DNA of 64,000 nucleotides from Vibrio sp. 10N.261.55.A7 (lineage in GTDB: Bacteria > Pseudomonadota > Gammaproteobacteria > Enterobacterales > Vibrionaceae): positions 1-64,000 of the forward strand of contig NZ_MCWZ01000014.1 of the NCBI RefSeq assembly GCF_002877365.1, in the 5' to 3' direction. The position numbers and the translations under genes were made by a program. Below, piece by piece: positions 47,356 to 49,040 of the stretch. Positions within the stretch are counted from its first letter, which is position 1; the number at the start of each line of letters is the position of its first letter. The notes under the pieces are model-generated. The model had not been told where the DNA came from. It did not search any database and saw only the letters and a list, made by a program, of their open reading frames with translations.

Positions 47356-47756
47356 ATGTGTGTTTTAAAGCGTAAGATAAACCAAGTCTCAAATACCAAA
47401 AGGGCTGCGATGGCGTATTGCCAATGTGTCCCGTACGCGATGAAATAGAAAACACCACCCATTGAAAGCCATATCATTAAGAGAGACTGCACTTTTTCTT
47501 TCGGTGTTAACCCTTCATTGCCTTTTAACCGCCTTGCGATAGGGCCTAGTCGAGGGTGCTTAAGAAGCCACTGCTGAAATTTCGGAGAGGCGACACCAAA
47601 GCAATATAACGCCAACAAAATAAATGGCACCGTTGGAAGCAGGGGAACCGTCACTCCAATCATACCCAAGATGACACAGGTCCAGCCAACGCATATATAG
47701 CCTTTTCGTTTTATGTATTGTTTTGAAAATGGACGACATTTTCCTTTGTTATTCAT
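47340..47756 (-). CDS. ybaN: YbaN family inner-membrane protein (DUF454)
   Basis: The 138-residue protein has the DUF454 hallmark GVTVPLLPTVPFILLALYCF close to the N-terminus, with helices at about 20-40, 42-58, 88-105 and 108-128, and the conserved LLKHPRLGPI loop. The function is unknown. It is convergent with tyrS, sharing the terminator. Confidence 0.88.
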   Translation of the reverse strand: MNNKGKCRPFSKQYIKRKGYICVGWTCVILGMIGVTVPLLPTVPFILLALYCFGVASPKFQQWLLKHPRLGPIARRLKGNEGLTPKEKVQSLLMIWLSMGGVFYFIAYGTHWQYAIAALLVFETWFILRFKTHIKKAP

Positions 47757-48194
47757 ACATGAACCAACTGATTTTATTGTTATCTATAGATTATTGGTTA
47801 AGGCCATTGAGAAGGGCAAGTAATTAACACAAATAGGCGAAATTTAGCTGATCTGATCTTTTAGATTTGGTAGTATGCGCGCGCTGCTATTACAGCAGTT
47901 CATTCGGAGATAACTATGAACAATACCGACCATCCTCCTAGTATGAAGGGAGAAGAGTAACCGCTCTGGTATTGTCGATCTTCGCCCCTACCTAGTGGTA
48001 GGGTATGCACCACCTTTTCCCTGTATTTTTCTCCATTTCTTTCTAGACACCATAAGCTACATCACATTTGTGTTGTAGGGTTTGTGACGAATTTCATTCT
48101 AGCGCTATCGGCATTTTGCTTGGCAATAGAGGTGAAAATGATTTCAAACACTTATGCGTGATGGTCGTTACCTTTGCCAATCGGGAGATTCGCC
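47757..48194 (+). promoter_or_regulatory. Long structured leader of the mgtE-like gene
   Basis: The gap upstream of the MgtE-like gene contains a 14-codon ORF (47916-47960) and three possible stems: CAATACC (47921-47927, inside the ORF) with GGTATTG (47968-47974); CCCTACC with GGTAGGG (47986-48003); and CTACATCAC with GTGTTGTAG (about 48056-48077, one mismatch). A competing stem GTGGT (47995-47999) with ACCAC (48009-48013) excludes the second. A -10-like TAGTAT lies near 47872. The layout recalls leader-peptide control of Mg2+ transporters such as mgtA; this is inference. Confidence 0.5.
47916..47960 (+). CDS. Possible 14-codon leader peptide ORF of mgtE-like gene
   Basis: The ATG at 47916 has GGAG 6 bases upstream. 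The peptide is MNNTDHPPSMKGEE, with two adjacent prolines and an acidic end, then TAA. Pro and acidic residues in leader peptides are used as Mg2+ sensors in mgtL of enterobacteria, which makes the composition suggestive. Part of the ORF pairs with sequence just after its stop, so ribosome position could change the fold of the leader. Confidence 0.5.
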   Translation: MNNTDHPPSMKGEE

Positions 48195-49040
48195 ATGACG
48201 GTAATGAGCAATACTTACATTGAAAACACACCTAACTTTTCAGATGAAGAGATAGGTGCCGCGCGCAACGCTTTTTTACAGTATGACCAAGAGAAGCAAT
48301 TGCATCTTTTGACGGTTATGCCAATTGAAGAAGCGGCTGGAATTTTACATCACTGCTCTGTTGGGTATGTTCAGCGGCTTATTAGCTTGCTAGAAGCTCA
48401 AGGACACGACAAAAGAACTCGACACTTTGCGCACCAACTTGGGATCATTCACTCAGAGGTAGAGACTGCTGATGGGTATCTGACGACCAGTGTTATCGAT
48501 CACGTGAAACAACGTATTGGCTGGATCATTGCTTTAGCGTTACTTGGTATCGTCTCAGGCTTAATCATTGCGCAATATGAAGATACCTTGAGTCAGTTGG
48601 TTCTCTTGGCGATTTATATGCCTGTAATCGCGGCCGCAGGTGGCAATACTGGAACACAAGCGGCGACTCTCGTGATAAGGGCGTTAGCGACTGGAGAGCT
48701 AAAGAAGAGGCAATGGCTTGCTGTATTGTGGAAAGAGAGCCGAGTGGCAGTATGCCTAGCACTGGCCATTTCCTTTGTGATGATCGGCAGAATATTGCTC
48801 TTTAGTGATTCATCGTCTGCTGGGGGCTTTGATATTAATCTGATAGCGTTGGCAATCGCAGTTGCCTTGTTTATTCAGGTAACAATATCGACCACACTCG
48901 GTGGCGTATTGCCAATCCTTGCAAGAGCAGTCAAGCTAGACCCCGCCGTATTGGTGAGTCCTGTTTTAGCTTCGATTGTGGATATATCAGGTATGTGGAT
49001 CTATTTTACAGTCGTTAACTATTTCTTAGGCATTGCTTAA
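48195..49040 (+). CDS. MgtE-type Mg2+ transporter, short form without CBS domains
   Basis: The 281-residue protein has a short N-terminal MgtE-like helical region (about 15-85) and then the five-helix MgtE pore domain with the signature AAAGGNTGTQAATLVIRALATGEL, including the Asp- and Asn-rich pore residues near the end (LDPAVLVSPVLASIVDISG). Usual MgtE proteins are about 450 residues with two CBS domains that gate the channel by Mg2+; those are missing here. The ATG at 48195 has GGGAG 7 bases upstream. Divalent cation transport is likely, but the ion is not proven. Confidence 0.85.
   Translation: MTVMSNTYIENTPNFSDEEIGAARNAFLQYDQEKQLHLLTVMPIEEAAGILHHCSVGYVQRLISLLEAQGHDKRTRHFAHQLGIIHSEVETADGYLTTSVIDHVKQRIGWIIALALLGIVSGLIIAQYEDTLSQLVLLAIYMPVIAAAGGNTGTQAATLVIRALATGELKKRQWLAVLWKESRVAVCLALAISFVMIGRILLFSDSSSAGGFDINLIALAIAVALFIQVTISTTLGGVLPILARAVKLDPAVLVSPVLASIVDISGMWIYFTVVNYFLGIA

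Follow-up and report, generated by a model that had tools for sequence, protein, structure and literature searches.

A conserved and possibly translation-sensing leader ahead of the short mgtE gene of Vibrio and its relatives

The question raised by this locus is whether the DNA ahead of a short mgtE gene in Vibrio sp. 10N.261.55.A7 carries a regulatory RNA, and what would read it. A preliminary description of the window (the whole stretch analysed, 64,000 nucleotides of contig NZ_MCWZ01000014.1) had proposed that an MgtE-like gene is preceded by a leader peptide and a switching RNA. That proposal is upheld by sequence conservation, by covariation and by selection on an Asp-x-Pro-Pro-Ser motif at the amino-acid level, and we judge the leader, at 47868-48207 on the + strand, to be real. 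It runs from an extended -10 element through a 5' hairpin and a 14-codon upstream open reading frame (uORF), recognized in that description and preceded by GGAG 6 nt 5' of its ATG, to the mgtE start, which lies within the last hairpin (Table 1). The 5' half of the uORF can pair with the sequence after its stop codon, and its 3' end and Asp-His-Pro codons with sites 64 and 225 nt further 3'. By DNA similarity search, 47870-48230 is similar in 133 of 196 same-genus genomes, mostly as two islands, one comprising the uORF and the stems that follow it and the other the mgtE start. A 357-nt piece folds at -101 kcal/mol vs a shuffled mean of -87.4 (z -2.79; 1 of 100 shuffles equally low). Our tentative reading, with a probability of roughly 0.48, is that of a translation-sensing 5' leader for short MgtE, a leader-peptide switch working like those of mgtL/mgtA and corL/corA and unrelated to them in sequence.

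Table 1 Features of the leader and of the gene behind it, in window coordinates
Feature	Position	Strand	Basis or partner
Extended -10 element TGGTAGTAT	47868-47876	+	TGnTAnnnT pattern count in leaders
H0, 5' hairpin at the putative transcript start	47883-47899	+	Covariation
uORF Shine-Dalgarno region CGGAGAT, also P1-low 5' strand	47905-47911	+	Partner 47978-47984, ATCTTCG
uORF MNNTDHPPSMKGEE, 14 codons (ATG to TAA)	47916-47960	+	D-[HNQ]-P-P-S at codons 5-9
P1-up 5' strand ACAATACC (uORF codons 2-4)	47920-47927	+	Complementary to 47968-47975
LR1 5' strand CGACCATC (from the last base of codon 4 through Asp5 and His6 to the first base of Pro7)	47927-47934	+	Complementary to 48160-48167
LR2 5' strand GGAGAAGAGTA (uORF 3' end)	47949-47959	+	Pairs with 48024-48034
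P1-up 3' strand GGTATTGT, directly after the uORF stop	47968-47975	+	Covariation and inverted-repeat search
P1-low 3' strand ATCTTCG	47978-47984	+	Complementary to uORF Shine-Dalgarno region
P2 hairpin CCCTACC-tagt-GGTAGGG	47986-48003	+	Covariation and inverted-repeat search
Pyrimidine-rich, G-poor segment, candidate Rho-loading (rut-like) region	48009-48068	+	Base composition
LR2 3' strand TATTTTTCTCC, inside the pyrimidine-rich segment	48024-48034	+	Inverted-repeat search, clade comparison
LR1 3' strand GATGGTCG, directly 5' of the mgtE start hairpin; last three bases common to P5	48160-48167	+	RNAalifold, pair counts, inverted-repeat search
P5, TCGTTACC (48165-48172) with GGTAATGA (48200-48207), encloses mgtE Shine-Dalgarno and ATG	48165-48207	+	Pair counts, fold
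Small hairpin, mgtE Shine-Dalgarno GGGAG (48183-48187) in its loop	48176-48193	+	Six pairs invariant in 28/28 same-genus leaders
mgtE, short MgtE, 281 aa, transmembrane domain, no CBS hit	48195-49040	+	Pfam PF01769

Model R1, a covariance model spanning 146 positions of the first island, matches 218 of the 329 genomes searched in Vibrionaceae, spread over 6 of 13 genera, and 17 of the 295 genomes of an order-wide sample, one of which (G375) comes from another family and has the leader ahead of a 55%-identical MgtE. All 30 divergent R1 matches examined have a short MgtE or a shortened relative downstream, and the 30 loci from the DNA similarity search are all followed by mgtE, in L027 only by its N-terminal part. 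A DNA pattern of the uORF core occurs in at least 118 stretches of Vibrio, Photobacterium, Enterovibrio, Salinivibrio or Veronia; among the 80 of these loci that were checked, mgtE or its N-terminal part begins 200-377 nt downstream of the uORF start in 79, and the 80th consists of only 187 nt of DNA. Of 24 genomes without a leader match in the DNA similarity and R1 searches, 23 have only a distant MgtE (at most 35% identity), and the other, G016, has an MgtE ortholog (56%). From 224 leader loci, 73 repeats and 16 loci not taken were set aside, which left 135, or 108 after removal of near-copies; a locus was taken when its uORF encoded D-x-PPS, its mgtE start had the given letters and its DNA was long enough. 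The 16 left out were L082, L094, L100, L101, L106, L148, L165, L166, L184, L191, L215, L217, L219, L227, L234 and L240; the first five were read by hand, and those of the others numbered within L134-L213 are among the 80 checked loci. The uORF-core pattern, which fixes most of the DHPPS letters, supplied 44 of the 108 leaders (among the matches listed), and these 44 are therefore no evidence for conservation of DHPPS or of the LR1 5' strand.

The protein encoded downstream in the window matches PF01769 at 112.9 bits over residues 142-273, its sole Pfam family at E<=0.001, and its match to TIGR00400 starts at model position 268 of 450 and scores below the cut-off. This makes it a short MgtE, and nothing in it points to the regulatory CBS domain through which Mg2+ gates full-length MgtE. 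A longer MgtE paralogue, a 454-aa open frame with 25% identity over the matched part, is encoded in the same genome. Among 128 leaders whose downstream frame is readable to its stop, the protein has at least 260 aa in 119, 203-213 aa in three and 93-128 aa in six, from V. xiamenensis and Salinivibrio.

Transcription would start just 5' of H0. Of 106 leaders, 72 have TGnTAnnnT in the 81 nt preceding the uORF, against a shuffled expectation of 14.9, and in 67 of those 72 it ends 39-40 nt before the ATG. The -10 element was not listed by a consensus promoter scan, because that scan needs a -35 hexamer. In H0, both sides have changed in 5 of 6 pairs and 96.2% of cells are paired (100 leaders, 99 distinct).

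The sequence variants of the uORF argue that it is under selection for Asp-x-Pro-Pro-Ser. Loci L001-L103 were found by DNA similarity or by model R1, both of which include the uORF letters and not the peptide as such. Taken over all 103 loci, with the same genomes recurring, the first nine codons occur as 18 distinct 27-mers; 17 are in frame, and all 17 encode D-[HNQ]-P-P-S at codons 5-9. Within these codons only nt 18, 21 and 24 vary, the wobble positions of His6, Pro7 and Pro8, together with a single change at nt 16, and the amino-acid changes at codon 6 are His to Gln via nt 18 (L103) and His to Asn via nt 16 (L101). In the 18th variant, that of genome G028 (L094), a one-base difference breaks the frame and the RNA letters remain. 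From codon 10 onward the uORF is variable in sequence and length, with peptides of 14-19 residues among the 135 leaders. Of the prolines and acidic residues first pointed out in the window's peptide, Pro7-Pro8 and Asp5, its invariant acidic residue, have stood the comparison, and the terminal acidic GEE is unconserved. The uORF is thus conserved at the amino-acid level, as in a leader-peptide attenuator. In G016 (L106) it keeps MQNVDFPPSLNGIGNN, with D-F-P-P-S, and most RNA letters are changed. By eye, this locus retains a similar promoter-like element and 5' hairpin, the mgtE start hairpin and the LR1 partner are gone, and no clear Shine-Dalgarno stands ahead of the uORF; it is possibly a stripped-down version of the leader.

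All 108 leaders, 44 of them chosen by a pattern that fixes Pro and leaves the third base free, have CCU or CCC as codon 7 of the uORF (47934-47936), and codon 8 uses all four Pro codons. The restriction may reflect the use of a single tRNA-Pro species at this step. It also lends weight, as does the invariance of Pro7-Pro8 in the 17 in-frame variants, to the nearest rival of the favoured reading. In that rival, the ribosome would stall at His-Pro-Pro-Ser in an EF-P- or tRNA-Pro-dependent manner instead of dropping off in response to Mg2+. P1 would be held open, LR1 masked and the mgtE start hairpin changed in a translational switch, with proline, EF-P or general elongation as the signal. A plain Pro-Pro stall needs no Asp, so the invariant Asp5 counts against it. 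EF-P and Pro codons are described as acting on the mgtL and mgtP leaders in the available part of PMC6460261. We regard stalling of this kind as somewhat unlikely here; the folding models, considered below, bear on it in both directions.

Across the aligned leaders, RNA helices built from the uORF's own letters covary. In an unfitted alignment of 28 same-genus sequences (A1; L007 and L010 left out), the structure H0 + P1 + P2 pairs 93.5% of cells vs 89.3% when shuffled, with a covariation of 0.241 vs 0.163 (0/500 shuffles) and at most 0.112 for slid versions. Double changes in A1 affect one pair of P1-low and none of P1-up, and the support for P1 comes from other genera. In an alignment of 100 of the 108 leaders (A3), covariation reaches 0.419 vs 0.190 shuffled (0/500), a value that leans toward the model because the alignment was fitted to it. 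Changes on both sides are found in A3 in 6/6 pairs of P2 (97.2% of cells paired), 3/7 of P1-up (92.9%) and 3/7 of P1-low (77.9%), the last being weaker than the other helices. RNAalifold predicted H0, P1-up and P2 on A3, and not P1-low; on the same-genus leaders with no structure given, it predicted H0, P2, LR1 and P5, and not P1. An inverted-repeat search of 336 nt gave five pairs, four of which are LR2, LR1, P1-up and P2. P1-up, which is 100% complementary in that search and covaries across genera, is the stem linking the uORF start to the sequence after its stop that was noticed in the window at the outset. Comparative alignment, which the preliminary description had suggested as a check, thus found a conserved leader with covarying helices.

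The two long-range helices are LR2, whose arm to 48024-48037 spans 14 nt at 79% complementarity in the inverted-repeat search, and LR1, whose arm to 48160-48170 spans 11 nt at 91%. LR2 has been remade with other letters outside Vibrio, as GGGAAGC:GCTTCCC in the Enterovibrio-like group, GGAAAATTA:TAATTTTCC in the KLEN group and GGGAAATAAC:GTTATTTCCT in G375; the V. harveyi-type and Photobacterium-like groups have it in weak form or not at all. For LR1, where the strand it has in common with P5 was located by allowing up to 5 differences from the consensus, the first six pairs are kept in 105-108 of the 108 leaders and the outer two in 102 and 98; A-U becomes G-U in 19 leaders, and there is no double change. 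When strands were swapped between leaders, a leader's own partner was better than the mean of swaps for P1 in 69/108 and for LR2 in 88/108, and in a second test for P1-up in 85/108, P1-low in 68/108 and LR2 in 77/108, a modest excess in both. In ungapped swaps between clades, which we assigned from peptide spelling, the own LR2 partner was better in fractions of 0.83 (Vibrio-main), 0.84 (Salinivibrio), 0.80 (Enterovibrio-like), 0.92 (KLEN) and 0.92 (f2), and less often in the V. harveyi-type (0.52), MNTTD (0.61) and Photobacterium-like (0.62) groups. For P1-up, the clade swaps gave 0.73, 0.94, 0.31, 0.26 and 1.00 for the first five groups in the same order and 0.51, 0.94 and 0.32 for the last three. 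Both helices thus fail to beat the swaps in several groups. LR1 showed no excess in the clade swaps (0.03-0.56); none is expected, because its letters hardly vary, and the swaps give it no support.

As in leader-peptide attenuators, there are alternative RNA pairings that involve the uORF, namely P1-up, LR2 in several groups, and LR1. P1 crosses LR1/LR2 in topology and would exclude them. These crossing pairings are conserved in place of the two mutually exclusive hairpins named in the preliminary description, which were not confirmed as a pair of local hairpins; the region of about 48040-48158 aligns poorly between species. Between the pyrimidine tract and LR1, both the length and the sequence of this segment and of its counterparts in relatives differ strongly. 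Complementary letters such as ATACAG/CTGTAT bound it in several Vibrio leaders, and it is perhaps a free-form spacer hairpin.

The crossing helices could also be taken as a direct ion-sensing RNA, in which pseudoknot-like P1 + LR1 + LR2 would make up a riboswitch-type fold binding Mg2+ or another ligand, with the uORF secondary. This would suit the crossing itself, the near invariance of the letters around the mgtE start and in LR1, and G028, where RNA letters persist despite a broken uORF frame. Apart from G028, however, changes in codons 5-9 follow the reading frame, G016 keeps D-F-P-P-S with little of the RNA, and no Rfam family matches. We consider such an RNA distinctly improbable. In the Rfam searches, none of 10 related loci reached the gathering score of any family, and 3 kb of the window, searched at E up to 5, had four weak matches, with neither the mgtA leader (named Mg_sensor in Rfam) nor the M-box riboswitch family among them.

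In the segment after P2, C exceeds G in 108/108 leaders and is at least twice G in 83/108, vs 5.1% of background 60-mers of the window. An intrinsic terminator in the leader was considered and rejected, as none was found in 47700-48300. A C-rich, G-poor region without an intrinsic terminator therefore lies before the gene, as in a Rho attenuator. Together with the conserved D-x-P-P-S and the use of uORF letters in P1, LR1 and LR2, it points to a switch read by the ribosome, for which we infer Mg2+, Rho and the polarity. In the favoured reading, ribosomes that finish the uORF would keep its 3' half covered and the pyrimidine-rich segment bare; Rho would then load, P5 would stay at full length and mgtE would be low. 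Ribosome failure at Asp-x-Pro-Pro, which the MgtL case leads us to expect at low Mg2+, would free the uORF to pair with the pyrimidine segment (LR2) and with the site adjoining P5 (LR1, which takes three P5 bases). With the segment hidden and P5 shortened, mgtE would be made, and P1 would then cover the uORF ribosome-binding site and hold the state.

Folding of the 108 leaders is in part consistent with this scheme. The LR2 partner has a mean unpaired probability of 0.17 when the RNA is naked; the value rises to 0.49 when a ribosome sits at codon 8 and to 0.66 when the uORF is coated. Openness in coated vs naked RNA is higher by more than 0.1 in 85/108 leaders and lower in 2. Because complementarity served to choose the partner, these results are partly circular, and the switch is poorly visible in the leader of the window itself (0.70 naked, 0.48 at codon 8, 0.79 coated). 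The value at codon 8 speaks against stalling as the switch, since a ribosome there also covers the start of the LR2 strand and leaves the partner more open than in naked RNA.

At the mgtE start, each P5 pair is kept in 106-108 of the 108 leaders, a set chosen partly on mgtE start letters, with C-G to U-A in 2, and the predicted folding energy of the 54-nt piece is -16.6 kcal/mol (z -2.03). Since LR1 and P5 share three bases, LR1 should shorten P5, which is weakly borne out in the folding models. In relative units, pairing of the P5 region is 0.69 in naked RNA, 1.01 with an initiating ribosome, 0.86 with a stalled one, 0.75 with a terminating one and 0.74 with the uORF coated. The rise from 0.69 to 0.86 when nt 7-37 are masked favours the stalling alternative, as does pairing hardly above the naked value in the terminating and coated states. 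At the mgtE ribosome-binding site, nested folding gives mean shifts between ribosome states of -0.15 to +0.05, with both signs among species. Folding thus predicts little change at this site, which counts against the favoured switch. The post-stop ATCTTCG looked by eye complementary to the mgtE Shine-Dalgarno; as an anti-Shine-Dalgarno it was rejected, the 45 nt after the stop pairing with that site at a mean of only 0.02-0.09 in five ribosome states.

That folding predicts no strong switch at the start codon would suit a constitutive leader, whose conserved RNA would set only mRNA stability and a fixed MgtE level. A 5'-terminal hairpin can stabilise mRNA. This explanation leaves the amino-acid selection on the uORF and the crossing helices from uORF letters unaccounted for, and we hold it to be highly improbable.

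With Mg2+ as the signal, the favoured reading is plausible from the downstream transporter and from analogy with mgtL, corL and mgtQ. Photobacterium damselae ATCC 33539 carries the leader (L241). In P. damselae RM-71, a 'Magnesium transporter MgtE' is 5.35-fold up at 1% vs 3% NaCl according to the accessible part of PMC10308900, in which short and long MgtE are not distinguishable and NaCl is not Mg2+. Against the favoured reading, Asp5 alone is less acidic than the EPDP of MgtL, and G028 combines its broken uORF frame with a downstream protein shortened to 119 aa. Shortened proteins without the channel domain are also found behind the leaders of V. xiamenensis (L027/L163) and Salinivibrio (L086, L088, L089, L146, L194, L195 and L248). 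The leader thus outlives the channel domain in some lineages, which the Mg2+-import reading leaves unexplained. The shortened proteins keep the N-terminal part of MgtE and, by eye, about one membrane helix, except the 93-aa one. The shortened protein of Salinivibrio seems functional, as its dN lies well below its dS (e.g. 0.07 vs 0.38).

Several known systems are of the same kind. The mgtL/mgtA leader of Salmonella and E. coli likewise has a short acidic and proline-containing uORF ahead of a Mg2+ transporter and alternative RNA pairing, as far as the available text of PMC11282234 and PMC6460261 describes it; drop-off at EPDP of MgtL hides a Rho site, and a Rho-dependent terminator is reported (PMC11282234), whereas the accessible portion of PMC11552253 states that none was detected for E. 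coli mgtA. The transporter there is a P-type ATPase and here MgtE (PF01769), the motif is EPDP with alternating prolines there and D-x-P-P-S here, and in our leader, which lacks an Rfam match, the uORF letters form two long-range helices. In corL/corA of E. coli and Salmonella, uORF translation is inverse to the transporter, and the ON state hides pyrimidine-rich rut sites (PMC11552253, in part), a layout predicted here from sequence; the transporter is CorA there and MgtE here, again without an Rfam match. In Salmonella mgtQ/mgtB, a destabilising uORF (Asp, Glu) alters a hairpin at the transporter start codon and acts at the level of translation (PMC8092293, in part). The mgtQ uORF lies within an operon, has 8 aa and reportedly does not need its Pro codon, whereas Pro-Pro is invariant here and the leader would lie at the 5' end of the transcript. 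The Mycobacterium tuberculosis M-box with a uORF also combines a uORF, a Mg2+-related RNA and Rho termination (PMC12810186, in part); it differs in being a direct Mg2+ riboswitch, and our leader has no M-box match. The preliminary description knew of no such leader for short MgtE proteins in Vibrio, and a literature search, mostly without subscription papers, found no published leader, leader peptide or uORF for mgtE in Vibrio or Vibrionaceae. The kind of system is known, and the family, motif, gene and architecture of this leader appear new.

A further-reaching idea, unlikely as we see it, is that Asp-x-Pro-Pro-Ser is a new minimal nascent-chain Mg2+ sensor and that, in this CBS-less MgtE family, a uORF has taken over sensing from the protein, its own letters folding back, after ribosome failure, over a Rho site and the transporter's start hairpin. 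In the literature consulted, Mg2+-linked leader peptides are those of enterobacterial mgtA, mgtB/mgtCBR and corA, and the present leader would add a third transporter family. With its different peptide and no Rfam match, its occurrence in six genera of one family and in one genome of another would suggest that ribosome failure at Asp and Pro codons came to serve as a gauge of ion status on more than one occasion. D-x-P-P-S at codons 5-9 offers a compact motif for asking how few residues such sensing needs.
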